From a virus: 58,956 bases of DNA. This document shows positions 2,567-25,289 of the stretch, piece by piece (within the stretch, counting starts at the first letter, position 1; every line of letters starts with the position of its first letter). The notes under the pieces are model-generated. The model did no database searches. It was not told the DNA's origin and was given only the letters and a program-made list of their open reading frames with translations. The position numbers and the translations under genes are program-made. The stretch is taken from IMG/VR virus record IMGVR_UViG_3300034073_000667, positions 1 through 58,956 of that record; one strand, given 5' to 3'.

Positions 2567-2599
2567 TAGGGCTAGACTTACGCAAAATCCAGCCTGGCA

Positions 2600-3148: not shown

Positions 3149-3151
3149 TCA

Positions 3152-7696: not shown

Positions 7697-7699
7697 TCC

Positions 7700-9125: not shown

Positions 9126-9547
9126 GCACCAAACGCGAGCAGATCCTCGAGGCCATCAAGACTGCGTTGACCGGTTCGGCGACGCTGGGCGCCACCGTGT
9201 ATCGCAGCAGGGTTACGCCGCTGGCTCGGGGCGAGTCCCCGGCGGTGATTGTGGAGCCAGTGCGCAACGACGTCGAGCAAAACACCGCACTGCCGACGCT
9301 CGATCACTCGATGCAGGTAAGAGTTGCCGTCATTGTTCGCGGAGAGATTCCTGATCAGCTCGCAGATCCAGTTATCGCCGCAGCACATTCCGCCATCATG
9401 GCTGATCTCACTCTGGGTGGATTAGCAATTGACGTTCAGCCTGGAGAAACAGAATTCACAATGCAAGATGCCGACCAACCGGTTGGTGTTATCTTTTCTA
9501 TTTACATTGTTCGTTACCGCACTTCAGTGGGCGATCTTTCAACCTGA
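9122..9547 (+). CDS. Tail terminator, gpU-like
   Basis: 141 residues starting at GTG 9122. The pattern (KREQILEAIKTALTG, ... VEPVRNDVEQ, late IVRYRTSVGDL) is that of minor tail proteins that cap the tube and join it to the head. It sits immediately upstream of the tail-tube gene, as gpU sits before gpV in lambda. The positional counterpart in module E is at 52927. Confidence 0.65.
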   Translation: MSTKREQILEAIKTALTGSATLGATVYRSRVTPLARGESPAVIVEPVRNDVEQNTALPTLDHSMQVRVAVIVRGEIPDQLADPVIAAAHSAIMADLTLGGLAIDVQPGETEFTMQDADQPVGVIFSIYIVRYRTSVGDLST

Positions 9548-9557
9548 GGCGACTACC

Positions 9558-9797
9558 ATGATTGATGAGTTCCATGGGCAGGGTGGCTCCTACATCCTTG
9601 ATCCCGAAACTGGCGTCCGCGTCCTTGTTGAACGGACCGCTCCCCCTGAAACCCAAGAGGTAATTTCCAATGGCCCTTCTGACTCGCAAGCGTCTGATTC
9701 TGCTGGAGACGGAATCGAGCTACGGGACGGATCCGACTCCAGACGGCGCCGACGCGGTGCTGGTGAGGGATCTGAACATCACTCCTCTGCAGAGTGA
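9558..9797 (+). CDS. Small hypothetical protein before tail tube
   Basis: 79 residues beginning MIDEFHGQGGSYILDPETGV. The N-terminal half (DPETGVRVLVERT) vaguely recalls DUF2635, a short protein encoded just before tail tube or sheath genes in some phages. The frame runs 128 bases into the tail-tube gene, and that second half is low-complexity (Ser/Asp/Arg). Perhaps only the N-terminal part is meaningful. The start is 10 bases past the terminator stop. Confidence 0.4.
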   Translation: MIDEFHGQGGSYILDPETGVRVLVERTAPPETQEVISNGPSDSQASDSAGDGIELRDGSDSRRRRRGAGEGSEHHSSAE

Positions 9798-10605
9798 CGT
9801 TGTCAGCCGCGATCTGGTTCGTCCCTACCTGGGCGCGTCAGAGCAGCTCCTGGCCAACACCCGGGTGGAGTGCACCTTCAGCGTTGAACTGGCCGGCTCT
9901 GGTACTGCCGGGACCGCTCCTCGCTACGGCAAGGCCCTGAAGGCTTGTGGTCTGAGCGAAACGATCGTCGCCACCACAAGCGTCACCTACGCCCCGGTGA
10001 GCTCTTCCTTTAGCAGCGCAACCATCTATTACAACATTGATGGTGTTCTGCATAAGGTTACTGGTGCTCGTGGAACTTTTACCATCAATGGCACTGTTGG
10101 TCAGATTCCAACGATCGATTTCACTTTCACTGGCATTTACAACACGCCGACCGACACCGCTCTGCCGGCCGTGACCTATGCCAACCAGGCCACCCCTGTC
10201 GTGTTCAAGAACGGCAACACCACCGGCTTCGAGCTGCTGTCCTACGCCGGTTGTTTGCAGTCTGTAACGTTCGACGTGGGCAACACCCTGGTGTACCGCG
10301 AGCTCGTCGGTTGCACCAAAGAGGTGCTGCTGACCGATCGCGCCTCCACCGGCACGGTGGTTCTCGAGGCCGTCACCATGGCGACCAAGAACTACTTCAC
10401 TGCTGCTCTGAGCGACGGCAGCCTGGGCAACCTGCTGTTCCAGCACGGCCAGACCGCTGGCAACATCGTCGATTTCGCCTCCACCAGGATCGACATCGGC
10501 GACGTGTCCTACAGCGATCAGGACGGCATTCACATGCTGAACATTCCTTACACCGCTGTGCCTAGCACAAGCGGCAATGATGAATTCAGCATTGTTTATA
10601 CTTGA
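9670..10605 (+). CDS. Major tail tube protein
   Basis: 311 residues of the beta-sandwich tail-tube type (starts MALLTRKRLILLETESSYGT, later YTGIYNTPTDT-like hairpins). It forms the stacked hexamers of the non-contractile tail. It is encoded after the tail terminator and before a terminator hairpin and the frameshifting chaperone, the canonical position. It is about twice the size of, and not evidently related to, the two 138-139 residue tube proteins of module E. Confidence 0.8.
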   Translation: MALLTRKRLILLETESSYGTDPTPDGADAVLVRDLNITPLQSDVVSRDLVRPYLGASEQLLANTRVECTFSVELAGSGTAGTAPRYGKALKACGLSETIVATTSVTYAPVSSSFSSATIYYNIDGVLHKVTGARGTFTINGTVGQIPTIDFTFTGIYNTPTDTALPAVTYANQATPVVFKNGNTTGFELLSYAGCLQSVTFDVGNTLVYRELVGCTKEVLLTDRASTGTVVLEAVTMATKNYFTAALSDGSLGNLLFQHGQTAGNIVDFASTRIDIGDVSYSDQDGIHMLNIPYTAVPSTSGNDEFSIVYT

Positions 10606-10629
10606 TTCGGCAGGCAGGCCAATTCAAGA

Positions 10630-10658
10630 GGGGCGGCGCCATGGTCGCCCCTTTTTTA
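10630..10658 (+). terminator. Rho-independent terminator after tail tube gene
   Basis: GGGGCG (10630-10635) pairs with CGCCCC (10646-10651) around a 10-base loop, followed by six T (10652-10657). It lies 25 bases after the tail-tube stop and before the chaperone gene. Partial termination here would let the abundant tube protein be made in excess over the chaperone and tape measure. Confidence 0.75.
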
Positions 10659-10694
10659 TTGCGTGTATGATTGGTGAGCAGTGCCTTCCAATCA

Positions 10695-11021
10695 ATGGCG
10701 TTTGTCCGCAAAAAGGTCAAGACTTTCAAATGGCCCGTTACCGTCGAGGAGCCCAGCGACGGCGGCACCTTCGATTCCAGCACGTTTGACGTTGTATTTA
10801 AGCGCCTTGGACGCAGCGAATTTAGCAAGCTATCCGAAAAGGGCGACCTGCAGCTGTTGAAGTCTGTGGTGCTTGGGTGGGACGGGATTACCGATGAAGA
10901 TGGCAAAGAGGTGCCATTCTCGATGGAAGCGCTGAAAGAATTCTCGGACGATCCCTATTGGATTCGAGGCGTGCTTAAGGCATACACCGAAACCTTTGAT
11001 GGAGCAAAAGCGGGAAACTAA
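10695..11021 (+). CDS. Tail assembly chaperone, gpG-like
   Basis: 108 residues (MAFVRKKVKTFKWPV...). It corresponds to lambda gpG, the short chaperone that coats the tape measure during tail assembly. The start at 10695 was preferred to an in-frame TTG at 10671, which lies very near the terminator. The gene ends at TAA 11019-11021, directly after a slippery heptamer, and about 0.1 kb later a second frame continues to the tape measure. The counterpart in module E is at 54193. Confidence 0.7.
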   Translation: MAFVRKKVKTFKWPVTVEEPSDGGTFDSSTFDVVFKRLGRSEFSKLSEKGDLQLLKSVVLGWDGITDEDGKEVPFSMEALKEFSDDPYWIRGVLKAYTETFDGAKAGN

Positions 11022-11374
11022 AAGAGGCCGCTATTTTTTGGACGAAAGGCGGCAAGCGTGTAGAAGATAAAACCGGGGAGGATGCAGCCGCATTTGGCAT
11101 TGTTCTCCCCGTCGATCCAAAGGAGTACGAGGAAGAACAATTTGAAGTGTGGGACGAGAACTGGGATATTGTTATGATGTTTTTACGAATGCAGACACAA
11201 TGGAATACCACAATGGCGGGCTACCTCGGGCTGAAGTACGAGGTGCTTCTGATGCCAGGTGGGCTGTTGGATCTATACTCGGTGGGTGATCGCCTCGAGA
11301 TGATGGAGGGGCTGCGGGCAATGGAAGCAGCCGCTCTCACCGAGCTCGCCAAGGAGAACAAGGATGGCGCCTAG
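10695..11374 (+). CDS. gpGT-like chaperone made by -1 frameshift
   Basis: Ribosomes slipping back one base on GGGAAAC (11012-11018, reading G-GGA-AAC) leave the gpG frame just before its TAA. They continue in the -1 frame from 11018 to TAG 11372-11374. The added ~118 residues begin LKEAAIFWTKGGKR and end ALTELAKENKDGA. That frame is open with no start codon of its own until GTG 11147. In lambda the equivalent heptamer is GGGAAAG and the gpG-T fusion recruits tube subunits. The extension overlaps the tape-measure start (11364) by 11 bases, as in other siphoviruses. Confidence 0.75.
11012..11018 (+). promoter_or_regulatory. Slippery heptamer for programmed -1 frameshift
   Basis: GGGAAAC matches the X-XXY-YYZ rule in the zero frame (G GGA AAC) and is followed at once by TAA. 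Both tRNAs can re-pair with GGG and AAA after a -1 slip. A stop codon right after the slip site can favour slipping. Confidence 0.75.
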
Positions 11375-14300
11375 GCAGATCACCGACATCCTGGTCCGCC
11401 TTGGCATTGAAGGTCTGCAGGGCCTGGACAAGGTCAGCAGCGCTTTCAAGGATCTGCAGAAGACCCTCGATGGGCCAACTACTTCAGCCATTGAGCGAGT
11501 TCGTCGTAGTATTAACGAATATAGCGATGCTTCGGCTCGCAGCGAACAACTAATCAAGGGCCAGCTTGAAGCGTTACGCGGTCTCAAGACGCAGGCTGAC
11601 ATCAATAGCGCGACGTATAGACGACTTAATGACGACATAAATAGACTTGAAACTGAAATGCGCGGCACTACCGCCGCCATTGATCAGCAGCGTCAAGCCG
11701 TTCTTGCCTCCACGTCTGCGTCGGAGCGCAATGCAGACGCATTACGTCGTCAGATTCAGGCGTTTGGCGCCCTTCAGCAGCAGACCAGGCCCGGGTCTTC
11801 CGCATTCGCTCAGCTCGGCAGAGACATCGAGACCGCTCGCACCCGCCTGACCGGTCTCACCACCGAAGCCCAGCAGTTCAGTCGCACGCTGACCGCCGGC
11901 TTTGGCGCCACACCAGAAATTCTCGCGAGGCAAATTTCAGTTCTTCGCCGTAACGTGACGCAATTGCGTTTTGACTCGGAGAAATATCTAGAGACCCTGG
12001 AGAGAATCCAGCTTCTATCAATGACGCAGGCCGGCAGAACCGGTCGAGCAAATGTTATTGCAGGCTTTCGCGCATATCAAAGCAGCGAATTTGCCCGTGG
12101 CTATGCAGCTCCATCAAGGCTGCCTGATCTGCCCAATACAACTGCAGCGCTCGAGCAGCAGTTGTCTGAGCTATCTGCGCAACTTAATAACGTTGAAAGG
12201 GGAAGCGCCGATTACACCCGTGTTTCGATGCAAATGGCAGCAGTTCAGCGTGAGCTGCGAACTGAGTTGCTTGGCACCGCCGAAGCCTTCAATCGCCTGA
12301 ACATCGCTCAAGCTGGCGCAGAGCGTCGAGCGGCAAAGCTGGAAACGATCCAGGAGTACTACCGGACTCAGGGCCCGATGGCGCCCGGTGTTGGCGGCTT
12401 CCGAGATCCTGCCACTGGCGCAATGATCGCCCGTGGCGCTCGCACGCCAGATCGCATCCGCGTTCAAGAGCAGGCATACGCACGGCCGATCGGTCCAGAG
12501 CCTTTCCCTGAAGCTGCTCGCAGGGCAGAAGAAGCGATCGACAGGTCGCTAAATGACGTAAACAAGATTTACGAAAACGCTCGCATTCAGCGGGCAGAGA
12601 TACAGTCTAAATACGATAATTTGCATATTGAAAAACTGCTTGAAGGGCTAGACCTTGAAGGACGCCTTAGGCAAAAGTCTTTTGATGATGAGCTTGCTGC
12701 TTTTGATCGTCAACTCGAGGCTCGAGATCGCCGCCGTCGTGGTCGCATCACACCGGGCCAAGCGGTGCAAACTGCCGGCGCCGTGATCTCTGGCGGTATC
12801 TTCGGCGGCCCAGAGGGTTTCCTGGGCGGATTAGGTGGCGCTGCACTTGGTGCCAGTCGCGCAATTAAAGGTCTTGACATGGTCGGCGGTTCATTTGCGG
12901 GCATTGCTATCGGTGCCCAGCTTGGAATGTTCAGGCAGCAAATTGCTGATACCGCTAATTATGCTGCGGAAATTCAGGGATTGCAAATTGCGCTTCGTGG
13001 GATCCTCGGCGATCAAAAATCTTACAATACGGCTATTGCCGCCGCTGCTGCTGCCACTAAAGAACTGAATATCCCTCAGGCCGAAGCTACTGCAGGCTTG
13101 ACTCGTCTTAGTGCTGCCGTTATTGGGGCTGGCGGCAATGTGAACGATTCGGTATTTGCTTTTAGGGCGATTGCCGAAGCTATCAAGGCTACAAAGGGAA
13201 ATGCCCAACAGGTAGAAGGAGCATTGCTTGCCTTGACGCAGGTTTTTTCTAAAGGAAAAGTTAGCGCCGAGGAACTCAATCAAATTGCTGAAAGACTTCC
13301 TGGCACTTTCACTCTATTTGCGCAGGCCACCGGAAGAACCGGGCCTGAACTCCAAAAAGCCCTCGAACAAGGTCAGGTTGGACTTAATGATTTAATGAAA
13401 TTTCTTGAGCTTGCAAGCAGCAAATATGGGCAAACTTCATTAAAAATTGCGAAGTCATCCGAAGAGGCCGGGGCTCGATTAAATAATGCATTCAACGATA
13501 TGAGGTTAAATGTTGGCAAGGCGCTGCAGCCATTGGGCGCACAGTTGCAAGAGGTATTTACCGGTTTCCTGGTATCAATAACACCTGCTGTTACTGCAAT
13601 TGCCAGGGCGCTTCCTTCTTTGGTCGACGGCTTCCGCAAGGCTTATCAGCAGGGCGGAATTCTTAAGGGGGTTGTGGACGGGCTCGTGGGCTCACTCGTT
13701 GTGTTTGCCGGATTGCAAGTGTTCGGAGCGTTCATTGCTGGCGCTAGAGCTGCTATTACTGTTACAGGAGCGCTTATCAAGGCCTTAAAAGCTCTTACTG
13801 CCGCTAATTTGCTTGCGGGCGCAGCTGGTTTCATAAAAAGCAAGCCAGGCGTCATTGCAGCACTTGTTGCGGGTTTGGGCGTTGGAATTGATGCGGCTTT
13901 CAATCAGGGCAAAATCGTAAAAGGAATTGCATCTGGAATCACTGGCGCCATTGATCAGGCGTTTAGCGGCCTTGGCGCAATGATGCCCGAAATACCGGCG
14001 CTTGACCTTTCTGGCGGCAGGACAAACTTCCGTCAGGGAGCTGGCGGCGGCGGTCGCGATGACAAGGCGGCCGCACGCGAAAGAAAAGACTTGTTCAATG
14101 AATTGCTTAATCAACTTAATGCTCAAAATGAAGTTCTGGCAAAGCAAGGTCGCTTAAACGAGTCGGTAGCAGAAACCGAATGGGCAAAAGCCGGTGCCGC
14201 ATTGTTTAATGCAGAAGAAATTTTGCGCAATGAACAGGCCCAGCTTGATTTGCGCTTGAAGTTTGGAGAAGTAAGTAAAAAAGTTTACGATGAGCAACAG

Positions 14301-15341
14301 AAGGCTATCAAGCTCGAAGGACAAACTGTTCGCCAAGAATTCAATAAAACAGTTAAGAAATTAAAAGAAGAAGCCGATGCTCTCCTAAAAGGTGTGACCG
14401 GCCCTGGCGGCGTTGCCGGTCCGACCGAGACCCCCCTTCAGCGTGCTTCTCGCGAGACCACTGAAGACATTGCAGAGCGTCGTGCTCGAGCGCTGCAAAT
14501 TGGTGGCCTAGCAGGCCAGGCTGCATTTGAAGGCCTTGGCGCCCTCGATGTGCGTCAGATCGCCAGCCGTAAAGTCGCGGGAGGAGAAGTCGCTGACTTG
14601 GAAAAGCAAATACGAGGTTTGCAGCAAATGGGAAAAGAGTTGAGCACTCTGGATCAGCTTAAGGAAAAATATTTTGAGGATTGGGATAGCCTCGACCCCG
14701 TATTGCGTCGTCAACTGGAACTTCTTGCTGCGCAGAAAGACGCCCTTGTGAAGCAAACGCAGGCTGCAAAAGACATGAAACAACTGTATTCCGACATTGG
14801 CATGTCGATCAAAGACGGAGTCGTCAGCGCAATTCAAGGAGCGATCGACGGAACGAAGAGTTTGCAGCAGGTAGCGTCCGATCTTCTTAATTCAATTGCG
14901 AACAGACTGCTGGACGTAGCGATAAACTTTGCATTGTTTGGAGTAATGTCTGGTACTGGCACCGGTGGCGGTCTGCTTGGTGGGTTGTTTAAGCCAAACG
15001 CAATGGGCAACGCCTACGCCAAGAACGGCATCGTCCCATTCGCCTATGGCGGCGTGGTCAGTCGACCGACCCTGTTCCCATTCGCCAAGGGCATCGGCCT
15101 CATGGGTGAGGCGGGCCCGGAGGCGATTCTGCCGCTGCGGCGCGGATCCGATGGCAGACTGGGTGTGTCCAGCAGCGGTGGCGGCAGCACGGTCGTGAAT
15201 GTCAGCGTGGATGCCAGCGGAACTGCTGTTGAAGGCGATGGCCCCGGCGCCAATCAGATGGGCCGGATCATCGGTGCGGCCGTGCAGGCTGAGATTGTCA
15301 AAATGCAACGGCCTGGCGGCCTCCTCGCGAACACACGCTGA
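11364..15341 (+). CDS. Tail tape measure protein (module A)
   Basis: 1325 residues; its length sets tail length. Residues ~1-480 are mostly coiled coil. A tape-measure core domain occupies ~520-720 (TANYAAEIQGLQIALRGIL ... SAEELNQIAERLPGTF). Hydrophobic, probably membrane-active segments lie at ~755-850. Another helical region spans ~900-1160, and the C-terminus has lambda gpH-like features (LLNSIANRLLDVAINFALFG). The last ~55 residues, ending MQRPGGLLANTR, are nearly identical to the end of the otherwise different 760-residue tape measure of module E. This suggests that the end contacts the shared tail tip. Confidence 0.92.
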   Translation: MAPRQITDILVRLGIEGLQGLDKVSSAFKDLQKTLDGPTTSAIERVRRSINEYSDASARSEQLIKGQLEALRGLKTQADINSATYRRLNDDINRLETEMRGTTAAIDQQRQAVLASTSASERNADALRRQIQAFGALQQQTRPGSSAFAQLGRDIETARTRLTGLTTEAQQFSRTLTAGFGATPEILARQISVLRRNVTQLRFDSEKYLETLERIQLLSMTQAGRTGRANVIAGFRAYQSSEFARGYAAPSRLPDLPNTTAALEQQLSELSAQLNNVERGSADYTRVSMQMAAVQRELRTELLGTAEAFNRLNIAQAGAERRAAKLETIQEYYRTQGPMAPGVGGFRDPATGAMIARGARTPDRIRVQEQAYARPIGPEPFPEAARRAEEAIDRSLNDVNKIYENARIQRAEIQSKYDNLHIEKLLEGLDLEGRLRQKSFDDELAAFDRQLEARDRRRRGRITPGQAVQTAGAVISGGIFGGPEGFLGGLGGAALGASRAIKGLDMVGGSFAGIAIGAQLGMFRQQIADTANYAAEIQGLQIALRGILGDQKSYNTAIAAAAAATKELNIPQAEATAGLTRLSAAVIGAGGNVNDSVFAFRAIAEAIKATKGNAQQVEGALLALTQVFSKGKVSAEELNQIAERLPGTFTLFAQATGRTGPELQKALEQGQVGLNDLMKFLELASSKYGQTSLKIAKSSEEAGARLNNAFNDMRLNVGKALQPLGAQLQEVFTGFLVSITPAVTAIARALPSLVDGFRKAYQQGGILKGVVDGLVGSLVVFAGLQVFGAFIAGARAAITVTGALIKALKALTAANLLAGAAGFIKSKPGVIAALVAGLGVGIDAAFNQGKIVKGIASGITGAIDQAFSGLGAMMPEIPALDLSGGRTNFRQGAGGGGRDDKAAARERKDLFNELLNQLNAQNEVLAKQGRLNESVAETEWAKAGAALFNAEEILRNEQAQLDLRLKFGEVSKKVYDEQQKAIKLEGQTVRQEFNKTVKKLKEEADALLKGVTGPGGVAGPTETPLQRASRETTEDIAERRARALQIGGLAGQAAFEGLGALDVRQIASRKVAGGEVADLEKQIRGLQQMGKELSTLDQLKEKYFEDWDSLDPVLRRQLELLAAQKDALVKQTQAAKDMKQLYSDIGMSIKDGVVSAIQGAIDGTKSLQQVASDLLNSIANRLLDVAINFALFGVMSGTGTGGGLLGGLFKPNAMGNAYAKNGIVPFAYGGVVSRPTLFPFAKGIGLMGEAGPEAILPLRRGSDGRLGVSSSGGGSTVVNVSVDASGTAVEGDGPGANQMGRIIGAAVQAEIVKMQRPGGLLANTR

Positions 15342-15676
15342 TGGCGACCTTCGCTTATACGCCTAGCTTCAGCGCCGATCTCGAGGAGCAGCCTCGAGTC
15401 AAGTCCGTTCGGTTTGGTGACGGCTACGAGCAGCGGCTTGCCTATGGCCTGAACACGCAACCGAAAAAGTGGTCGCTGACCTTCTTGAACCGCACCGACA
15501 CCGAGCGGGACAACATCTTGGGATTCCTGCGGGCCCGGGGCGGCGTCGAGTCATTTGACTGGACTGACCCGGCCGGCTACGCAGGCAAATGGGTCTGCAA
15601 AGCATGGAACAATAGCCTGGTCAATTGTAATTTCAACAACATTACAGCTACATTCGAGGAAGTGTTCGAGCCCTGA
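15341..15676 (+). CDS. Minor tail protein, gpM-like
   Basis: 111 residues with the gpM signature FGDGYEQRLAYGLN and a late FDWTDPAGYAGKWVC. In lambda gpM is needed late in tail-tip assembly, after the tape measure. Start and stop codons overlap both neighbours (TGATG at each junction). The copy in module E (57011) keeps the same motifs but shares only about half its residues, in sharp contrast to the next gene. Confidence 0.85.
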   Translation: MATFAYTPSFSADLEEQPRVKSVRFGDGYEQRLAYGLNTQPKKWSLTFLNRTDTERDNILGFLRARGGVESFDWTDPAGYAGKWVCKAWNNSLVNCNFNNITATFEEVFEP

Positions 15677-16569
15677 TGGCCTACGCAGCTTGGCAAGCCA
15701 GCACCGCATACGTCGTCGGTGACATCGTCCGCGCCACGACCACGCAGGTCAGCGGGCTGGTGTTCCGCTGCACTGTGGCAGGCACCAGCGCCAGCACGCA
15801 ACCGGCATGGCCGACCGACATCGGCAGCACCATCGCAGACGGCGGCGTCACATGGGCGGCGATCAGCAGCGTTTACGAAGAGCTAGCAGTTCTGGGTCCG
15901 AACGCGATCATCGAGCTGTTTGAGCTGCAGCTTGACACCACGCTGCACGGCGCCAGCACCACCTACTACTGGCACAACGGCGTGAACGCAGCCGTCACCG
16001 GCAACATCGTGTTTGACGGCAACACCTACGTCAGGCTCCCGGTCGAGGCGACGGGCTTTGATTACACCAGCTCCGGCAGCCTGCCACGTCCGACGCTGCG
16101 AATCAGCAACCTGTTCAGCGACATGACCACGCTGCTGCTGCTGGTCAATGCGACCACGCCCGGCAACGACCTGGGGGGCGCCACAGTGCGGCGGATCCGC
16201 ACGCTAAAGAAGTTCCTGGATGGCGAGGCCAACGCCGACCCTAATGCCCGCTTCCCAACGGAGATCTGGTACGTCGACCGGAAGTCGAACGAGAACCGCG
16301 ATCTGGTGGAGTTCGAGCTGGCCAGCAAGTTTGACCTAGCCGGCGTCATGCTGCCCCAGCGGCAAATCATCGCCAACGTGTGCCAATGGAAGTATCGTGG
16401 CGCTGAGTGCGGGTACACCGGCAGCAATTACTGGAACGTGAACGATCAGGTCGTTAGCACGCTGGCGGCTGACGTGTGCGGCAAACGGGTGGAGAGCTGC
16501 AAGCTGCGGTTCGGTGCAACGGCTGAGTTGCCGTTCGGAAGTTTCCCGGGGGCTGGACTTACCGCCTAA
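15676..16569 (+). CDS. Tail tip protein gpL-like with Fe-S cysteines
   Basis: 297 residues. Residues ~68-297 match lambda gpL. Cysteines at 236, 245, 268 and 275 have spacing 9-23-7, the same as the four cluster-ligating cysteines of lambda gpL, so a [4Fe-4S] cluster is expected. Residues ~1-65 form an extra Trp-rich module (WQASTAYVVGDIVRA ... FRCTVAGTSAS ... PAWPT) that resembles small carbohydrate-binding domains seen in phage virion proteins. By eye the module E copy (57355) is about 96% identical in protein. In this copy gpK does not follow directly, because an HNH gene intervenes. Confidence 0.9.
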   Translation: MAYAAWQASTAYVVGDIVRATTTQVSGLVFRCTVAGTSASTQPAWPTDIGSTIADGGVTWAAISSVYEELAVLGPNAIIELFELQLDTTLHGASTTYYWHNGVNAAVTGNIVFDGNTYVRLPVEATGFDYTSSGSLPRPTLRISNLFSDMTTLLLLVNATTPGNDLGGATVRRIRTLKKFLDGEANADPNARFPTEIWYVDRKSNENRDLVEFELASKFDLAGVMLPQRQIIANVCQWKYRGAECGYTGSNYWNVNDQVVSTLAADVCGKRVESCKLRFGATAELPFGSFPGAGLTA

Positions 16570-16575
16570 GGTATC

Positions 16576-17244
16576 ATGATAGGGAGTCCGACTGGTTTTA
16601 TCGTGTCCTTCGGGAACAGGTTCGTCGACATCACTGGCTATCGCTGTGGCTTGCTGGTGGCAGTGAGGCCAACCGCAGGGCGGAGCGGCAGCAGCGTGAT
16701 TTGGGAATGTATTTGCGATTGCGGCAACAAAAAACTCGCGTCTCAGGCACATTTACGCGCAGGAACCCCAAAGTCGTGCGGATGCCTGCCCAACCCGCTT
16801 CCTCCAATTACAATCAAACATGGAATGTTTGGCCATCCTCTTTACAAAACTTGGGAAGGAATGATGGCTAGATGCTACAACGAAAACAATAAAGATTTTT
16901 ATTTATATGGAGGAAGGGGCATTAAGGTTTGCGACCGTTGGCATGATCCCAAGAACTTCGCCGAGGACATGAATCCGCGCCCTGACGGCCATACGCTTGA
17001 TCGCATCGACAATTCGCGTGGTTATAGCCCGGACAACTGCAGATGGGCTACGGCCATGCAGCAGCACGCGAACAAGCGAAGCAATAAGCTGTTCACTATC
17101 AACGGAGAGACACTGCATCAGCGCGAATGGTGTAGGCGCTACAGCATCCCAGTGAGCACATTTACGAATAGGCTGAATGAAGGACTTGAGCCGTTGACTG
17201 CGCTCACGATGCCTTCCCGTCGTCCAAGGCGTGTCGCCAAATGA
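16576..17244 (+). CDS. Homing-type HNH/AP2-like endonuclease inserted between L and K
   Basis: 222 residues. A zinc-finger-like region (CICDCGNKK ... SCGC, residues ~46-71) is followed by HG-type DNA-binding repeats (KTWEGMMARCYN, YGGRGIKVCDRW) and an HNH/AP2-class motif (LDRIDNSRGYSPDNCRWAT). Such free-standing phage nucleases are mobile. In the second copy of the region (58248-58255) gpL is followed directly by gpK, so this gene is a 665-bp insertion. Its ATG sits exactly where the gpK ATG would be (7 bases after the gpL stop), and its TGA overlaps the gpK ATG. Confidence 0.82.
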   Translation: MIGSPTGFIVSFGNRFVDITGYRCGLLVAVRPTAGRSGSSVIWECICDCGNKKLASQAHLRAGTPKSCGCLPNPLPPITIKHGMFGHPLYKTWEGMMARCYNENNKDFYLYGGRGIKVCDRWHDPKNFAEDMNPRPDGHTLDRIDNSRGYSPDNCRWATAMQQHANKRSNKLFTINGETLHQREWCRRYSIPVSTFTNRLNEGLEPLTALTMPSRRPRRVAK

Positions 17245-17954
17245 AGCTGACCGACACGCTCAAGGCTGACATCCTGGCGCACGCGCAGGCCGAGGATCCC
17301 CGCGAGTGCTGCGGCCTGATCCATGTGGTCAAAGGCCGGCGCCGCTACTACCCGTGCCGCAACATCGCCGCTACACCGGATGAGCATTTCGTCTTGGATC
17401 CGACCGACTACGCAACAGCCGAAGACCTGGGCGAGATCGTGGCCGTGGTCCATAGCCATCCGGTAACGCAGCCAGTGCCATCAGCAGCGGATCAGATCGG
17501 CTGCAATAACAGCGGCCTGCCGTGGGTGATCGTCAATCCAAAAACCGAAGCCTGGGGCGGCTGCGAGCCTGTAGCGTTTGAGCTGCCCTACGTCGGCCGT
17601 GAGTTTGTGTTCGGTGTGGTGGACTGCTATGCCCTAGTGCGGGACTGGTATAAACGCGAGTGGAGCTTGATGCTGGCAGATTTTGAGCGGCGTGATCGGT
17701 TCTGGGAGCGCGGCGAGAACCTGTACCTTGACGGCTATCGCTCGCAGGGGTTCAGGCCGGTGCCATTTGAGGAGTTGCAATACGGCGACGCGATCCTGAT
17801 GCAACTGTTGGCAGACCTGCCCAACCATGCTGCGGTCTACTTGGGCGACCAGCAAATCCTGCATCATGTGCAAGGGCGACTCAGTAGCCGCGACGTGTTT
17901 GGCGGTTACTATGTCAAGAGCACTGCCCTGGTCTTGCGGCATGAAAGTCGTTAA
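17241..17954 (+). CDS. Tail tip protease/hydrolase gpK-like (JAMM plus NlpC/P60)
   Basis: 237 residues with two enzyme domains, as in lambda gpK. The N-terminal JAMM/MPN+ metalloprotease has E22, H71, H73, S81 and D84 (HxHx7Sx2D). The C-terminal NlpC/P60 peptidase has C129 (VVDCYALV), H196 (NHAAVYLG) and a possible third residue at H208/H209. The NlpC domain probably helps the tail cross peptidoglycan, and the JAMM domain is thought to act in tail-tip processing. It overlaps gpI by 14 bases. The last 127 bases to 17942 recur exactly at the window end. Confidence 0.9.
   Translation: MKLTDTLKADILAHAQAEDPRECCGLIHVVKGRRRYYPCRNIAATPDEHFVLDPTDYATAEDLGEIVAVVHSHPVTQPVPSAADQIGCNNSGLPWVIVNPKTEAWGGCEPVAFELPYVGREFVFGVVDCYALVRDWYKREWSLMLADFERRDRFWERGENLYLDGYRSQGFRPVPFEELQYGDAILMQLLADLPNHAAVYLGDQQILHHVQGRLSSRDVFGGYYVKSTALVLRHESR
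17816..17942 (+). repeat. 127-bp exact repeat, internal copy
   Basis: This stretch of gpK is base-for-base identical to 58830-58956, the final 127 bases of the window; the preceding base differs (A17815 against G58829). Offset 41,014. See the findings for its meaning as an assembly overlap that closes a circle. Confidence 0.95.
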
Positions 17955-18591
17955 GGTCTACGGCGCACTCCGCAAGCGACTCGGCCAGTGCCGGTTCGAG
18001 TTCGAGGTGGACACGCCCGCACAGGCGATCAAAGCGCTGTGTGTCAATTTTCCGGGTTTGGACAAGTGGCTGATCGATTCTGAGCAGACCGGAATGGGCT
18101 TCCGCGTTACCGTCGGCAAGGAGCGCATCACGCCCGAGGATGCCAGCGTGGCCGTGTTGCCATGGTCTGAGCGGGATGTGTTCAGCATTGCGCCTGTGAT
18201 GACCGGCGCTGGGCAGGGATTCGGACAGGTGTTGGCTGGGATTGGTTTAGTGGCGCTGGCGATCATTGCTGGTCCTGCTGCTGGCGGCTTTCTTGGATTG
18301 GGCGCCCAGGCTTTTGCAGGCGCTGGTTTTGTTTTGGGTGGTGCCGCTGCTACCGCAATTGGCGGCATTGGCGCGGCACTGGTGCTCGGCGGCGTCGCTC
18401 AGATGCTGTCCCCGCAGCCGGACATCTCAGCCCTGCAGCGCGGCAAGGAAGCCGCACGTCTGGAATCGTTCAGCTTCAGCGGCATTGTTAATACCAGCCA
18501 GCAGGGGATGCCGGTGCCGATTGTCTATGGCCGGGCTTTTGTCGGTTCGGCTGTCCTGTCTAGTGGCCTTGACGTGGCACAACTGAAATGA
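17941..18591 (+). CDS. Tail assembly protein gpI-like
   Basis: 216 residues from the ATG at 17941. Residues ~1-85 form a beta-grasp-like domain (MKVVKVYGALRKRLGQCRFE). Gly/Ala-rich hydrophobic segments that could be membrane-active occupy ~90-165. The end (QQGMPVPIVYGRAFVGSAVL) is typical of gpI. In lambda gpI is required for tail-tip assembly but may be absent from the finished tail. The ATG overlaps the gpK end, and the stop overlaps the ATG of gpJ (ATGA). Only one copy is present in the window. Confidence 0.88.
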   Translation: MKVVKVYGALRKRLGQCRFEFEVDTPAQAIKALCVNFPGLDKWLIDSEQTGMGFRVTVGKERITPEDASVAVLPWSERDVFSIAPVMTGAGQGFGQVLAGIGLVALAIIAGPAAGGFLGLGAQAFAGAGFVLGGAAATAIGGIGAALVLGGVAQMLSPQPDISALQRGKEAARLESFSFSGIVNTSQQGMPVPIVYGRAFVGSAVLSSGLDVAQLK

Positions 18592-21500
18592 CAATGATTC
18601 AAGGTGCCAGCACAGGCGGCGGTTGCTTTCTTGGGCACACGATGGTGCGAACGCCTGACGGCGAACGTCGCATTGATGAGTTGCAGGTAGGCGATCAAGT
18701 CCTGAGTTTTGACGACAAGGGCGAGCTGCATACGGCAACAATTCTGAAGGTGCATGAGCACCCGAACGAGTGCGTCGTGCGTTATCAGCTTTGGGGAGGC
18801 GCCTTGCTGGATGCCACGCCAAACCACTGGGTGTTGAACCAGTTCAATGCTTTCGTTCCAATCGGGAGCCTTGGCAGTGATGACTGTCTGGTGGATGAGA
18901 ATAACCACTTGCGCCCAATTATCAACCGCGAAGACATAGGCACTGGCACTGTCTACAACTTGACCGTTAAAGGGCACCATACGTTTATCGCTGGTGGCAT
19001 CCGCGTTCATAACGCTGGTCTGGGTGTTGGCGCTATCCAGGGTGCTAGCACTGGCGGCGGCGGAAAGGGTGGCGGCGGCACAACTCACATCCCCTCAGAG
19101 GTTGATGACAGCCTGCAGTCGGTTCAATTTGCCAGCGTCCTCGACCTGATCAGCGAAGGCGAGATCGATGGCATTGAGGGCGGTGTGCAGGGCATCTACC
19201 TGGATGGCACGCCAGTCCAGAGCAGCGGCGGAATTGACAATTTCACGGGTTACACCGTCATCACCCGCACTGGCACGCAGGTTCAGAGCTACATCCCTAA
19301 CACCAACGGGATCGAATCAGAGCAGGCTGTGAACGTCGAGATCACGGCTGCTGCATCCGTCACCCGGCAGATCACTGATTCAGACGTTGATCGCGCTCGC
19401 ATTACGGTGCAGGTGCCAGCGCTGCAGATCATCGAGGATGACGGCGACATCGTTGGTCATAGCGTCAGCATCCGCTGCAGTGTGCAATACAACGGCGGCG
19501 GCTACACGACCGTTTTCGAGGACACGATCAGCGGCAAGACAACCAACGCCTATCAGCGCGACTACATCATCAGCCTGACCGGAGCATTTCCGGTTGACAT
19601 CCGCATGGAGCGGATCAGCGCTGATGAATCCAGTGCTCGTCGGCAAAATCGCACATTCTGGTTCAGCTACACCGAGATCATTGACGAGAAGTTCAGGTAT
19701 CCAAACAGCGCACTGGCCTTCCTGCGCTTCGACAGCCGCCAGTTCAAAGGCATCCCAGCCCGCAAGTACCTGGTGCGTGGCATCAAGGTGCAACTGCCAA
19801 GCAATGCCACGGTCGACACGACCACATACCTCGGCCGCGTTACCTACAGCGGCGTTTGGGATGGCACCTTCGGTGCTGCTACCTGGACCAACGACCCGGC
19901 ATGGTGCCTGTGGGATCTGCTGACGAACACCCGATACGGTGCAAGCATCCCGGCCAGCAGCCTGGATCGTTACGACTTCTACGCGATCAGCCAGTACTGC
20001 AACGAGCTGGTCAGCGACGGACGCGGCGGCCTAGAGCCACGGTTCAGTTGCAACATGCTGATCAACAGCAGGGACGAGGTTTACAACGTCATCCAGGAGT
20101 TCGTCGCCCTGTTCCGTGGTATTGCCTACTACGGCGCCGGCGCCATGGTAGTGCTGCAGGACAAGCCATCAGATCCGCAATACCTGTTGACCCCAGCCAA
20201 CGTGGTCGAGGGATTGTTTAACTACAGCGGTTCATCGCAGAAGGCACGGCACACGACTGCCACTGTTGCTTATCAGGATTATGACAACCTGGGCGAAGTG
20301 TCTTATGAGTATGTCGAGGATGCATCAGCCGTTGCCAAGTACGGCATCATCAACAAGGACATCAAGGCAGTCGGCTGCTACTCACAAGGGCAGGCGCACC
20401 GTGCTGGCAAGTGGGCGCTGCTGTCCGAGCAGAATCTAACCGAGACCGTCACTTTCTCAGTGTCGATCGACTCGGGCATCGTGCTGCGGCCTGGCATGGT
20501 GATCGACGTGGCCGATCCGGTCAAGGCTGGCAGCAGGCGCGGCGGCCGCATCGCAGCAGCCACAACCACAACCGTCACGCTGGACGACGCCACCGGCATC
20601 ACGCTCGGCACATCGCCCACGATCAGCGTCTTGCTGCCCACCGGCCTAGTCGAGACCCGCAGCGTCAGCACCCTGACTGCTGGTGTGATCACGGTCACGA
20701 GCGCGTTCAGCGAAGCGCCCAACCCCGAGAGCATCTGGGTCCTGCAGAACACCAGCCTGCAGACGCAGCAGTTCCGTGTCGTCAGTGTGGCTGAGGCCGA
20801 GGACGGCATCTACGGCGTGACTGCGCTGGCCTACAACAGCAGCATCTATGCCTCGATCGAGTCAGACATCAAGCTGCAGACACGAGACATCTCCAACCTG
20901 TCAGCTCTGCCTGCGTCGCCCACCGGCCTGACTGGCACGGAGCACCTGTACACCGACGGCCAGAACGTCCGCACCGCATTTGAGCTGAGCTGGGTACCGC
21001 CGACGCAATTGGTGCAGTCCTACCGGGTGATCTACCGGCTCGGCAACAACAACTGGTCGCAGATCGAGACCAATAGCCCCAGCACCCGCATCGAGGGCTT
21101 AGACGCTGGCACGCTGCAAGTCCGCGTCCAGTCGATCAACAGCCTCGGTGGTGTCAGTAATCCAGCTACAGCTACTTTCAACCTGATCGGCAAGACTGAG
21201 CCGCCTGGCAACGTCCAAAACCTGACGATCGAACCGATCAGCGCCAACAGCGCCCGCCTGCGGTGGGATGCCACGGTTGACCTGGACGTGCGTGTTGCTG
21301 GCCGTGTTCACATTCGCCACACCAACCGGACCAATGGCACCGGCACCTGGAGCAACAGCGTTGACTTAATCCCTGCAGTCGCCGGCTACAGCACCGAAGC
21401 CATCGTGCCGCTTGTCGAAGGCGAGATCCTAGTCAAGTTCGAGGATGACGGTGGCCGTCAGAGTCCGACCGAGGCGAGCGTGATCGTTGACTTCCCGGAT

Positions 21501-22322
21501 GCGCTCGGCAATCTGCTGGTGCAAAGCCGCCGAGAAGATGCAGACTCGCCGCCATTTCAAGGCAACAAAACAGATGTCTTTTACGACGAGGACTATGACG
21601 CGCTAACGCTTGACGGCAGCGACGAGCTAGATGATGTGCTTGATCTTGATTTGATCCCTGTGTTTGATCACATGGGACCAATCACCGGCTCTGGCACATA
21701 TGAGTTCCTTAATACCTTGGATTTGGGTGCGGTTTACGCATTGGACCTGTCACGGTTCTTTGTCACAAGCGGCTTCTATCCGAGTGATTTGATGGATAGC
21801 CGTACCGGCCTGGTCGATAGCTGGTCGGATTGGGATGGTGCCATTGTGGACAAGGTGAACAGCAAGCTGTACCTGAGACGCACTAACGACGATCCATCTG
21901 GGACGCCGACCTGGGCAAGCTGGCAGGAGTTCGTCAATGGCACGTTCTTGGGACGTGGCTTCCAGTTCAAAGCTGAGCTGATCAGCAACGACTCAGCGCA
22001 GAACATCCTGATCGATCAGCTCGGCTACGAAGCCACCTTCCAGCGCAGGACAGAGCAGTCGGTCGGTGCTGTCACCAGCGGCGCTGGCACCTACTCAGTG
22101 GCATTCGACAAAGCCTTCTTCACCGGCACTGCACTGCTTGGCGGCCTGAGCAGTAGCCTGCCCAGCATCGGCATCGTCGCGCAGAACATGGCGACAGGCG
22201 ATTACTTCAACGTGACCAACGTCACGAGCACCGGCTTTGACGTGACGTTCAGAAACAGCGCGGGCACTGCCGTCAGCAGGGATTTCCTATGGACTGCAGT
22301 GGGATTTGGCAAGGGCGCTTAA
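18588..22322 (+). CDS. Tail tip host-specificity protein gpJ-like with N-terminal Hint domain
   Basis: 1244 residues. After a Hint domain (residues 13-142, separate entry) and a Gly-rich linker, residue ~165 onward follows lambda gpJ closely: LDLISEGEIDGIEGG, NRTFWFSYTEIIDEKFRYPN, GVWDGTFG, WCLWDLLTNTRYG and QAHRAGKWALLSEQ. These form the hub and baseplate-like domains that bind the host receptor. Two fibronectin-III-like domains lie at ~785-970. The C-terminal third is unlike lambda and probably receptor-specific. An in-frame ATG at 18594 is an alternative start. The gene follows gpI with ATGA overlap. It likely serves both late modules. Confidence 0.9.
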   Translation: MTMIQGASTGGGCFLGHTMVRTPDGERRIDELQVGDQVLSFDDKGELHTATILKVHEHPNECVVRYQLWGGALLDATPNHWVLNQFNAFVPIGSLGSDDCLVDENNHLRPIINREDIGTGTVYNLTVKGHHTFIAGGIRVHNAGLGVGAIQGASTGGGGKGGGGTTHIPSEVDDSLQSVQFASVLDLISEGEIDGIEGGVQGIYLDGTPVQSSGGIDNFTGYTVITRTGTQVQSYIPNTNGIESEQAVNVEITAAASVTRQITDSDVDRARITVQVPALQIIEDDGDIVGHSVSIRCSVQYNGGGYTTVFEDTISGKTTNAYQRDYIISLTGAFPVDIRMERISADESSARRQNRTFWFSYTEIIDEKFRYPNSALAFLRFDSRQFKGIPARKYLVRGIKVQLPSNATVDTTTYLGRVTYSGVWDGTFGAATWTNDPAWCLWDLLTNTRYGASIPASSLDRYDFYAISQYCNELVSDGRGGLEPRFSCNMLINSRDEVYNVIQEFVALFRGIAYYGAGAMVVLQDKPSDPQYLLTPANVVEGLFNYSGSSQKARHTTATVAYQDYDNLGEVSYEYVEDASAVAKYGIINKDIKAVGCYSQGQAHRAGKWALLSEQNLTETVTFSVSIDSGIVLRPGMVIDVADPVKAGSRRGGRIAAATTTTVTLDDATGITLGTSPTISVLLPTGLVETRSVSTLTAGVITVTSAFSEAPNPESIWVLQNTSLQTQQFRVVSVAEAEDGIYGVTALAYNSSIYASIESDIKLQTRDISNLSALPASPTGLTGTEHLYTDGQNVRTAFELSWVPPTQLVQSYRVIYRLGNNNWSQIETNSPSTRIEGLDAGTLQVRVQSINSLGGVSNPATATFNLIGKTEPPGNVQNLTIEPISANSARLRWDATVDLDVRVAGRVHIRHTNRTNGTGTWSNSVDLIPAVAGYSTEAIVPLVEGEILVKFEDDGGRQSPTEASVIVDFPDALGNLLVQSRREDADSPPFQGNKTDVFYDEDYDALTLDGSDELDDVLDLDLIPVFDHMGPITGSGTYEFLNTLDLGAVYALDLSRFFVTSGFYPSDLMDSRTGLVDSWSDWDGAIVDKVNSKLYLRRTNDDPSGTPTWASWQEFVNGTFLGRGFQFKAELISNDSAQNILIDQLGYEATFQRRTEQSVGAVTSGAGTYSVAFDKAFFTGTALLGGLSSSLPSIGIVAQNMATGDYFNVTNVTSTGFDVTFRNSAGTAVSRDFLWTAVGFGKGA
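18594..18623 (+). repeat. Left flank repeat of Hint insertion
   Basis: Encodes MIQGASTGGG (residues 3-12 of the gpJ-like protein). The same nine residues IQGASTGGG recur directly after the Hint domain at 19032-19061 (residues 149-158). The codons are partly different, so this is an old or maintained duplication flanking the domain. Confidence 0.8.
18624..19013 (+). other. Hint (bacterial intein-like) domain within gpJ-like protein
   Basis: 130 residues, C13 to N142. Block A is CFLGHTMVRTPDGERRIDEL, followed by QVGDQVLSFD. The block-B-like motif is ATPNHW with T77 and H80. Blocks F/G are VYNLTVKGHHTFIAGG and end in VHN. There is no homing-endonuclease insert. The residue after the final Asn is Ala, not Cys/Ser/Thr, so classic class-1 splicing is not expected. 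This is the pattern of bacterial intein-like domains that self-cleave at one or both ends. Confidence 0.88.
19032..19061 (+). repeat. Right flank repeat of Hint insertion
   Basis: Encodes AIQGASTGGG, matching the left flank at 18594-18623 in nine residues. It is followed by a Gly/Lys linker that leads into the gpJ body. Confidence 0.8.
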
Positions 22323-22345
22323 ACTGGTAGCAAAGTGGCCTAGCT

Positions 22346-24109
22346 ATGGCTCAACACGATTACGTCATCGCTAACGGCACTGGTGCAGCCGTCCGATCTG
22401 ACCTGAACAATGCGCTGGCGGCGATCGTCAGCCAGAACAGCGGCGCCACTGCACCGACCACGACCTACGCCTACATGCCCTGGGCGGATACCGGCAGCAG
22501 CCCGCCGGTGTTCAAGATCCGAAACGCCGCCAACAACGGCTGGATCACGCTTTACCAGCTCGACGGCGAGTGGAGCACTATTGCCCTGGAGAACGGAACG
22601 GCTGGGGCGCCGTCCATTTACTTCAAAGACAGCGGCACCGATACCGGCATCTACAGCCCTGGCACTGACCAGGTTGCCATCAGCACGGGCGGCACCAGCA
22701 GGCTGACCATTGACGCCAGCGGCAACGTCAACATCGACAGCAATACGCTGTACGTTGATGCTTCGAATAATCGAGTAGGTCTGGGGACTAGCAGCGTTGG
22801 CTCGCTATTGCACTTGAAGCAAGACATTGCCGAGTCTGCAACACTCAACGCAGCCGGAAGTCATCTTCAAATCAACTCAGGTTCAGGATCTGGTACAAAC
22901 TATAGATCCACCATATTCTTTGCACCGCTAAATAGTTCCGGCAACGGAAGCCCTGCCGCCATATCTGCAATTGCTAGCGGCAACACCAATTCATCACTTG
23001 GATTCTATACAAATCCAGCCAATGACTACAGCGGCATTCCTGATCTAAGGATGCTTATTGACTCCTCGGGCAACGTAGGGATTGGCACTACGAGTCCTAG
23101 CGCAACACTTCACGTTGTTGGCGATGCGCTCTTTACTAATGCCAGCCCCATCATCAACTTGCCAGGCAGTGCAGTGAATCAAACTGCCAAGCTTAGAAAC
23201 GCCAACGGCGGTAGTAGTGTTTTGCAGCTTGAGTCTGCGTCACTAGTTTTTGCTAATGATTCTTCTATAGAACGCGCCCGCATCGACAGCTCGGGACGCC
23301 TGTTAGTTGGCACGTCTTCTGACTCTCAAACAAGCACTCTTGTCTTGAAAGGTAACAGTGCTGGAGTTGCCAACGCTGGAACATTGCGGATTGAAAGAGG
23401 TCAAGGTGCCGGAAACATTACGTCCAGCAATATAGAACTAGGCACCATTGCGCTCGGTGGTTCTGCTATTCCTAGCGCACTTGTCCAAGCATATAGCGAT
23501 GGAAATTGGACCGCTGGGACATCTTATCCAACTCGTCTAGTGTTCTCCGTTACTGCTGATGGTTCGGCATCACCAACTGAAGCCATGCGTATCAATAACG
23601 CAGGCGAGCTTCTGGTTGGCTACACATCAGACAACGGTGCCTACAAGCTCCAAGTCAACAGTCAGATCTTTGCCACCAGTGCCACCATCGCCACTTCTGA
23701 TGGTCGGTATAAAGAAAACGTTGCTACACTCGGCGGATGCTTGGATCTCGTCAAGGCCCTGCGTCCGGTTAGCTTCACCTGGAAACCCCAAGAGGACATC
23801 ACTCGTATTGATGACGAAGGCAATGAAGTGTTGGTGCGTGAGGGGCATAACTTTCCCGAAGGCATTCAAGTTGGCTTTATCGCTCAAGAAGTGCAAGAGG
23901 TTCTGGCAGATAAACCTTGGATGAGTAGTGTCATCAAGGAAAACGTCCGCCCTGTTGTCAAGGACAACGAGGGCAATGAGTTGGCGCCAGAGGAACAGTT
24001 CTACGGCATTGCCGAGGGGAATCTGATCGCTGTGCTGACCAACGCTTTACAGGAAGCTGTTACCGAGATCGAAAGTCTCAAGGCTCGTTTAGACGCGGCA
24101 AACCTCTGA
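22346..24109 (+). CDS. Tail fibre with C-terminal S74 intramolecular chaperone
   Basis: 587 residues. The N-terminal ~75 residues (MAQHDYVIANGTGAAVRSDL...) look like a virion-attachment domain. The middle consists of beta-rich repeats of the type IDSSGNVGIGTTSP and RIDSSGRLLVGTSS, typical of trimeric fibres. The C-terminal ~135 residues are a Peptidase_S74 chaperone: SDGRYKENV with predicted cleavage Ser451, then GFIAQEVQEVL and a final coiled coil (ALQEAVTEIESLKARLDA). The chaperone trimerises the fibre and then cuts itself off. It is encoded 24 bases after the gpJ-like gene. Confidence 0.9.
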   Translation: MAQHDYVIANGTGAAVRSDLNNALAAIVSQNSGATAPTTTYAYMPWADTGSSPPVFKIRNAANNGWITLYQLDGEWSTIALENGTAGAPSIYFKDSGTDTGIYSPGTDQVAISTGGTSRLTIDASGNVNIDSNTLYVDASNNRVGLGTSSVGSLLHLKQDIAESATLNAAGSHLQINSGSGSGTNYRSTIFFAPLNSSGNGSPAAISAIASGNTNSSLGFYTNPANDYSGIPDLRMLIDSSGNVGIGTTSPSATLHVVGDALFTNASPIINLPGSAVNQTAKLRNANGGSSVLQLESASLVFANDSSIERARIDSSGRLLVGTSSDSQTSTLVLKGNSAGVANAGTLRIERGQGAGNITSSNIELGTIALGGSAIPSALVQAYSDGNWTAGTSYPTRLVFSVTADGSASPTEAMRINNAGELLVGYTSDNGAYKLQVNSQIFATSATIATSDGRYKENVATLGGCLDLVKALRPVSFTWKPQEDITRIDDEGNEVLVREGHNFPEGIQVGFIAQEVQEVLADKPWMSSVIKENVRPVVKDNEGNELAPEEQFYGIAEGNLIAVLTNALQEAVTEIESLKARLDAANL

Positions 24110-24187
24110 GTCCTACTCACATCGAGGTCTGGCTCAACTATCTGGAATCTCCGAATGGCTGGGCTTGACGCCGTGTGGTAGTGTGTT

Positions 24188-24216
24188 GGGGCAGCGGTGC
24201 GTCAACACCCTGCCCC
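24188..24216 (+). other. RNA stem-loop ahead of accessory gene
   Basis: GGGGCAG (24188-24194) pairs with CTGCCCC (24210-24216), and GGTG (24196-24199) with CACC (24206-24209), giving about 11 paired bases with one bulge and a 6-base loop. There is no T-run, so it is not a standard terminator. It ends 22 bases before the ATG at 24239 and may act on the leader of that mRNA. A TTGACG lies just upstream (about 24165) but no well-spaced -10 box is evident. Confidence 0.45.
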
Positions 24217-24238
24217 TGGCCACGATCCCCTGGAGACC

Positions 24239-24598
24239 ATGACCCAAGAAGACTACAGGCATCCCATTGCCCCGCCGCCGGAGCTGGTGCGTCAATGGAT
24301 GGAGCGTACCGAGTACGACGAGCACACATGGTTTTACGAGAGCTACATAGCGGAGCAAGCCGCCCAATGGGGCGCAGACCAAGAGCTGGAGGCGTGCCTA
24401 AGGCTGGTTGAGATTGACGCAGGTGAGGATGCTTATGACTTTGCTCGCTACATCCGCGCCGCTCGCCGCCCCGAGCCTAAGCAGCCGAGCTTGAAGGAAC
24501 AGGCGCTGCTGGCCATTGACACCGCTGTCGCTGATGATCGTTTGTCAGCAGATGTTGCCAACGTTGTCCGCCGCGCACTGGAGCAGCTCGATGACTGA
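24239..24598 (+). CDS. Small accessory protein, cyanophage type
   Basis: 119 residues from MTQEDYRHP at 24239. The layout is an acidic N-terminus, EQAAQWGADQELEACLRL in the middle, and KQPSLKEQALLAIDTA ... VVRRALEQLDD at the end. I associate this layout with small proteins of Synechococcus phages, from memory and unchecked. Helical and soluble. No function can be assigned. It overlaps the next gene by 8 bases. Confidence 0.7.
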   Translation: MTQEDYRHPIAPPPELVRQWMERTEYDEHTWFYESYIAEQAAQWGADQELEACLRLVEIDAGEDAYDFARYIRAARRPEPKQPSLKEQALLAIDTAVADDRLSADVANVVRRALEQLDD

Positions 24599-24860
24599 CT
24601 TTCGTGCGCTGTGCGCTGAGCTTGTTGACGAACTTGAAGACTGGATTGCTTACGGCGATTATGGCGACTGCGCCGATGCACATGCGGTTGTAGACCGCGC
24701 CCGCGCCGCCCTGGCCCAGCCCGAGCCGCAGGGGCCGACGCTTGCCGAGGTAGATGATCTGTGCGCAGAGCACAGCTTTATGTACGACGGTGGTGACGAA
24801 GGGCTGGAGTGCGTACATGCTCTAATCGTTGACGCCCTCGCTCTCTGGGGGTGCCAATGA
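24591..24860 (+). CDS. Small hypothetical protein
   Basis: 89 residues beginning MTDFRALCAELVDELEDW, acidic and helical. The ending shares the style of its neighbours. ATG overlaps the end of the preceding gene and its own end overlaps the next start by 4 bases, so the three genes 24239-25096 form one translationally coupled unit. Function unknown. Confidence 0.65.
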   Translation: MTDFRALCAELVDELEDWIAYGDYGDCADAHAVVDRARAALAQPEPQGPTLAEVDDLCAEHSFMYDGGDEGLECVHALIVDALALWGCQ

Positions 24861-25096
24861 CTGACCGCACCCTTTCTCCCGCCGCCCAAGCGGTGTTGAC
24901 TGCCGTTATGCAGTACGAGATCAACCCTGAGTGTTGCTCACGGGAGATTGCCGCCGCCGCCCTGCGAGTTGCTGCAGATCAGGTATTAGCTGCTCAGTGG
25001 GAAGGACGAATACAACCCGATGCAGCGCACAGTCTCGGCATCAATTGGACCCGCGATGCGCTGCACGCCATCGCTGCCGAGCTTGAAGCCCAGTAG
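24857..25096 (+). CDS. Small hypothetical protein, cyanophage type
   Basis: 79 residues beginning MTDRTLSPAAQAVLTAVM and ending in a helix DALHAIAAELEAQ. The start MTDRTLSPAAQAV and the RVAADQVL core recur, as I recall, in small proteins from Synechococcus phages. Last gene of the coupled trio. Function unknown. Confidence 0.65.
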   Translation: MTDRTLSPAAQAVLTAVMQYEINPECCSREIAAAALRVAADQVLAAQWEGRIQPDAAHSLGINWTRDALHAIAAELEAQ

Positions 25097-25114
25097 CCAT
25101 TCCCACTAAAAATC

Positions 25115-25289
25115 ATGACCACAAAATGGTACTGCGTCGTGCCCCACACACCCTGGGCTAAAGACGGAAAAGTCTTTTTATCCAACGACGAAGACAGTTT
25201 CTACACCCAAGAGTTCCAAAAACCGCGAAGAGCTGGAAGCTTTTATCCAGCAGTTGCGTGCCGCCGCTGATGAGGCGTGGCCAAGCTGA
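25115..25289 (+). pseudogene. Small gene broken by a one-base frameshift
   Basis: From ATG 25115 the frame reads MTTKWYCVVPHTPWAKDGKV ... SFYTQEFQ, then turns to Pro/Arg-rich text and stops early. From the five-A run at 25218-25222 another frame continues NREELEAFIQQLRAAADEAW to TGA 25287-25289, which looks like a normal helical end. Removing one A joins them into a ~57-residue protein. It could be a sequencing error in the homopolymer, a genuine null, or a +1 recoding site. Confidence 0.6.

Follow-up and report, generated by a model that had tools for sequence, protein, structure and literature searches.

What is a self-processing domain doing at the very start of a phage tail-tip protein, and does it stay there once the protein has been made? 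In phages, such self-processing Hint domains are familiar chiefly as inteins of enzymes (terminase, helicase, RNR). The locus that raises the question lies in a virus record of 58,956 nucleotides, the whole of which is termed the window. A gpJ-like tail-tip/central fiber gene is present on the plus strand at positions 18588–22322 and encodes 1244 amino acids; its ATG overlaps the stop codon of the gpI-like gene (ATGA). A first-pass annotation had identified the gene correctly but placed its start at 18594, which is the second in-frame ATG. Profile matches are to central tail fiber J (phrog_31, E 1.6e-248), FNIII-A_GpJ (PF24801) and lambda TipJ (NF049904). Homology to gpJ starts at about residues 157–160, which correspond to lambda gpJ residue 3, and the solved gpJ chains 8iyk and 9e7m align from residue 160 onward. 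The gpJ body thus defined occupies positions 19065–22322.

The segment that precedes the body consists of several parts, all on the plus strand. A 12-amino-acid N-terminal flank, MTMIQGASTGGG (18588–18623), resembles a gpJ start, carries a Gly run at its end and has similar counterparts in Hint-less gpJs. It is followed by a 130-amino-acid Hint domain, C13 to N142 (18624–19013), which displays a block A motif CFLGHT starting with the catalytic Cys1 (C13, 18624–18626), a block B motif TPNH (residues 77–80, 18816–18827), a block F motif HHTF with His131 (18978–18980) and the block G terminal His-Asn (residues 141–142, 19008–19013). The C-terminal flank opens with AGLG (residues 143–146, 19014–19025), so that the +1 residue is Ala143. 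The nonapeptide IQGASTGGG is found on both sides, at residues 4–12 (18597–18623) and at residues 150–158 (19035–19061); the second copy is the start-like motif on the C side of the domain. In the N-terminal 196 amino acids, Pfam detects Hint (PF01079, 35.0 bits, cutoff 29.7) and PT-HINT (PF07591, 31.2 bits, cutoff 27.7), and TIGR01443 intein_Cterm also scores above its cutoff on the window gpJ. The domain proposed by the first-pass annotation, 12 residues into gpJ and with these motifs, is borne out by the Pfam and TIGR matches and by its recurrence in viral contigs. As it recurs in 451 such contigs with invariant catalytic residues, it is not a chance resemblance.

The predicted fold agrees. 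An AlphaFold model of the gpJ N-terminus, made from 35 relatives, has pLDDT values above 90 over residues ∼11–143, the Hint domain, and below 50 in both flanks. The best Foldseek match is BIL2 (6y75, E 5e-12), and a BIL (2lwy, E 2e-10) and inteins are matched as well. VIA-align superposes the modelled domain on inteins, a BIL and hedgehog with Z scores of 20–22 and an rmsd of ∼1.5 Å over ∼130 residues. The anticipated Hint horseshoe is therefore found in the model, and on its evidence the gpJ domain is a member of the Hint superfamily over its whole length.

Upstream, the gpI-like tail tip plug/assembly gene (17827–18591, phrog_32 tail assembly protein, E 9e-49) and a gpK-like gene with JAB and NlpC/P60 domains (17241–17954; PF14464, PF00877, phrog_30) precede gpJ on the same strand. 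A free-standing HNH endonuclease gene (16576–17244, plus strand, phrog_374) lies between gpL and gpK, where most close relatives have a gap of only 0–10 bases. Collaborative homing of the Hint domain by this nearby HNH enzyme was considered and rejected: 4 of 94 loci with Hint and 2 of 30 without have an HNH gene between L and K, which shows no association.

The window record itself looks, from its sequence, like a chimera or a recombinant of two related phages (1–18388 versus 18388–58956). It holds two sets of TerL, portal, capsid and tape-measure genes, and after the second set its right end repeats gpL and gpK (93.5% and 97.7% nucleotide identity) without the HNH gene. A second record of 41,137 bp matches window positions 53572–58956 at 100% and then 18388–25175 at 99.985%, and thus corresponds to the right part of the window (18388–58956) in circularly permuted order. 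Since gpJ with its Hint domain lies in the part common to both records, its presence cannot be put down to the join.

A single search with the N-terminal 196 amino acids matched 451 uncultured viral contigs. All 80 contigs retrieved from these matches carry the Hint domain together with gpJ. A DNA-pattern scan for the end of the Hint domain, in which gpJ was not required, added 76 loci, every one a gpJ N-terminus, of which two were assigned by eye (one test was limited by the contig end, one by a variant motif). Two divergent Hint domains, at L354 (3451–4128) and L355 (4001–4411), have 41–45% identity to that of L274 and are also located at gpJ N-termini; their junction reads HN/GGLG, with Gly at +1. 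Their position suggests that the association of Hint with gpJ is old. No Hint-plus-gpJ-like match was detected in 50,697 records of isolate phages, whose matches were either hypothetical proteins or inteins of genes other than gpJ. Species genomes yielded a single match, a 7-kb contig (L082) binned with a cyanobacterial metagenome-assembled genome (MAG), so prophages are of no help here. The closest isolate TerL to that of the window is from Synechococcus phage S-LBS1 (47%), the window TerL belonging to the portion that possibly stems from a different phage, and cyanophage gpJs are among the closest gpJ relatives. Together with the binning of L082, these likenesses point indirectly to a cyanobacterium as the probable host. 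A literature search found no report of a Hint domain or intein in gpJ, in keeping with the annotation's view that none is known in this protein position, and a survey of cryoconite phages names no intein for the variable regions of tail fibres (PMC7468147).

The domain is strongly conserved wherever it is present. Among 175 distinct alleles, Cys1, Thr65 and His119 (Hint numbering) are invariant, as are the terminal His129 and Asn130, a count that is partly the result of selection as the domains were located via an RVHN-type motif. The block B His68 is present in 174 of 175. The length is 130 amino acids in all loci of two sets (110/110 and 77/77). The median dN/dS is 0.048 in Hint and 0.070 in gpJ. 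A further cysteine, in a DDC motif (18885–18887; Hint residue 88, gpJ Cys100), is found in 175 of 175 main-family alleles and is absent from L354 and L355; it might perhaps exert redox control with Cys1. One copy, in L272, has an in-frame loss of ∼15 residues before block F, and is possibly decaying or misassembled.

The residues at the junction vary little. The AGLG that follows the domain is nearly fixed as protein with varied codons, and all four Ala codons are in use at +1. In the loci chosen without any pattern that contains the +1 position, Ala was found in 104 of 104, as the first-pass annotation had noted for the window. The −1 residue is Gly in 174 of 175 alleles. Scanning for HS-type codons at +1 (Ser, Thr, Cys, Pro, Arg and some more) detected only three contigs with two independent alleles, all Ser. 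These alleles (L345, L346 and L347; HN/SGLG) could splice classically. Cleavage at the C-terminal end alone would not need Cys1 or TxxH. As these N-side residues are kept as strictly as those of the C side, selection appears to act on both half-reactions.

Not every gpJ carries the domain. Of the loci recovered by searches with the gpJ body only, 25 near the window have Hint and 34 lack it; in a second clade the numbers are 43 and 21. Hint-less gpJs that are 92–96% identical to Hint-bearing ones occur in the same clade and show clean absence, their start being M..VQGAGGGGGGGGKGGGG. In a gpJ tree of 118 rows, 16 changes of Hint state are found, and well supported branches require at least 10 of these, though the sampling is biased to Hint-bearing rows and this affects the count of gains and losses. 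The Hint tree conflicts with the gpJ tree. Comparison of empty and occupied alleles in four pairs defines the insert as Hint, AGLG and a second start-like motif, with the flanks joined inside a Gly run. By its sequence distribution, then, the domain is an optional cassette in gpJ.

Exchange of the cassette between phages can be read at the DNA level. The Hint DNA of L208 is 94–95% identical to that of L326 and L146 (94.6% at a gpJ identity of 58%), whereas the gpJ proteins are 58–60% identical. DNA identity rises from about 50% to more than 90% inside the upstream run of Gly codons and drops to about 60% past the downstream run. A longer segment has been exchanged between L200 and L178, where the Hint domains are 98.7% and the gpJs 73% identical. 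The alignments indicate that the cassette is exchanged by recombination within the Gly-codon runs that flank it.

These borders also bear on the repeated IQGASTGGG, which had been read either as a duplication made upon insertion or as a repeat kept so that cleavage leaves the natural gpJ start. The two window copies differ at five DNA sites, all at third codon positions and with zero amino-acid change, and consequently do not represent a fresh DNA duplication. Target-site duplication is rejected as the origin, in that the equivalent of the C-side copy travels with Hint (L208 versus L326 and L146) and each border falls within a Gly run. The repeat would rather be a gpJ-start-like segment borne by the cassette, as its movement with Hint implies. 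As to the other proposal, the Gly-rich start does resemble those of Hint-less gpJs, but the similarity of the N and C flanks within alleles (22) is barely above that of shuffled sequences (mean 13.7, maximum 25). Restoration of a natural start is thus an impression and not a proven constraint, and the identity of the copies is not claimed here as selected.

Taken together, the gpJ Hint domain is probably a mobile element akin to a type A BIL, without an endonuclease, that removes itself after translation, with cleavage likelier than splicing. Type A BILs end in HN, do not have a +1 nucleophile and mostly cleave, but in part splice when the freed amine attacks the thioester (PMC4031507). In gpJ, Cys13 would form the upstream thioester, and cyclisation of Asn142 would free gpJ from Ala143, with a start AGLG..IQGASTGGGGKGGGG that resembles the Gly-rich start of Hint-less gpJs. 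All catalytic residues are present, and N- and C-terminal cleavage, suggested in the first-pass annotation, is chemically plausible. The two cleavages would probably predominate, and some of the protein might instead have its 12-residue N-peptide ligated to Ala143 by splicing. This should yield a free peptide of 12 residues, a Hint of 130 residues, gpJ from Ala143 and some spliced gpJ. The cassette, which comprises Hint, AGLG and the gpJ-start-like Gly-rich segment and lacks a homing endonuclease, would be gained, lost and exchanged by homologous recombination in the flanking Gly-codon tracts. It would persist because active copies are harmless, with selection maintaining both half-reactions wherever it is present. 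The N-terminal region of lambda gpJ is bordered in the tip by gpI and by the gpL iron-sulfur domain (PMC10721106), so an unremoved Hint domain could disturb assembly, which would account for how strongly activity is selected. Fold, catalytic residues, constraint, presence and absence, and transfer with its borders are sequence-based; cleavage or splicing, its products and harmlessness are what we infer. Near-uniform purifying selection across Hint could equally reflect a beneficial function. An internal start that yields Hint-free gpJ was also considered and is not general, as 118 of 176 alleles do not have an ATG, GTG or TTG between HN and the gpJ core.

Other fates of the domain may be weighed against self-removal by cleavage. 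Full splicing would excise Hint and join the N-peptide to Ala143, such that gpJ begins MTMIQGASTGGG-AGLGVGAIQGASTGGGG; the freed Ala143 amine would aminolyse the Cys13 thioester, in the manner put forward for type A BILs. Both Cys1 and the TxxH of block B, which serve the N-terminal reaction only, are as invariant as HN, the residue at −1 is almost always Gly, type A BILs are capable of this reaction (PMC4031507), and the two independent Ser+1 alleles could take the classical route. The annotation had judged splicing by the usual route unlikely with Ala in place of a +1 nucleophile, and the nucleophile is indeed absent, but in view of BIL aminolysis and the Ser+1 alleles a verdict against splicing is too strong. 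Full splicing as the regular outcome is still rather unlikely: Ala is universal at +1 in the unselected loci even though Ser is one base away, and cleavage products dominate in characterised BILs (PMC4031507). At the opposite end, Hint might stay unprocessed as a structural domain of the tail tip, and the long flexible flanks could tolerate an extra domain. This is scarcely credible, since the residues for both half-reactions are all, or nearly all, invariant and a binding domain needs no Cys1, TxxH or HN.

Processing might also serve the phage. As a maturation switch, Hint would block gpJ until it cleaves itself, e.g. by keeping the gpJ N-terminus from docking near gpL/gpI, and so time tip assembly. 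The strong constraint, the deep conservation of the Hint-gpJ pairing and the contacts of the lambda gpJ N-terminal region with gpL and gpI (PMC10721106) are consistent with such a role. We nevertheless regard it as distinctly unlikely. The near-identical Hint-less gpJs manage without Hint, which makes its timing non-essential and leaves unsupported the annotation's suggestion that cleavage could time or gate tail-tip assembly; frequent gain, loss and transfer suit a mobile passenger better; and no cue or partner was found. A variant, which is highly improbable, makes Hint a working device of maturation and no passenger: a tail-tip amine (e.g. that of Lys160 in the Gly-rich flank, or of a partner) would take over the thioester of the N flank, as a lysine does with BIL2, whereby gpJ would be cross-linked or switched on during tail assembly. 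Self-removal chiefly by cleavage remains the preferred reading. Here a Hint domain belongs to a structural protein of the virion and keeps a single position in hundreds of environmental phages. The many natural BIL-like domains with a fixed Ala at +1 are material for studies of cleavage versus splicing. Alleles with and without the domain occur in near-identical gpJs with borders readable in DNA, and these natural pairs make testable both the spread of an intein-like element that lacks an endonuclease and its effect on tail assembly.

Several known systems share the fold. Phage mini-inteins (gp41-1, 6qaz) and the TerL, RNR and DnaB inteins are likewise inserted in phage genes and vary in presence among relatives. 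They have a +1 nucleophile and occupy conserved enzyme sites, whereas the gpJ domain sits in a variable, Gly-rich, low-complexity leader before the gpJ homology of a structural protein; the Cys, Ser or Thr expected at +1 of a class 1 intein is replaced by Ala143 in the window and found only in rare relatives. PT-HINT pretoxin domains of polymorphic toxins share the PF07591 match, but the gpJ body and not a toxin domain comes after Hint. BIL2 of the Tetrahymena BUBL1 polyubiquitin locus (6y75/6tmm) is the top Foldseek match and a Hint domain with unusual ligation chemistry; it is eukaryotic, lies between ubiquitin-like domains and conjugates its flank to a lysine (PMC8616854), a setting unlike that of gpJ. 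'Putative gp62' of an uncultured virus (UniProt A0A218MKA3, 39% identity in a predicted-structure match) is possibly a further Hint-bearing gpJ; only a sequence record, with no description of the domain, was found for it. In sequence, the closest likeness is to type A BILs such as that of Clostridium thermocellum, 2lwy, which is the top PDB sequence-profile match (E 1.2e-8), although the structural scores tie with inteins. These BILs share with the window domain the Hint fold, a length of ∼130–140 amino acids, Cys1, TxxH, a terminal HN and the absence of both a +1 Cys, Ser or Thr and an endonuclease. Unlike them, the gpJ Hint domain is located in a phage virion tail-tip protein, 12 amino acids from its start, as an optional cassette that is swapped by recombination in Gly-codon runs and has a nearly fixed AGLG C flank.
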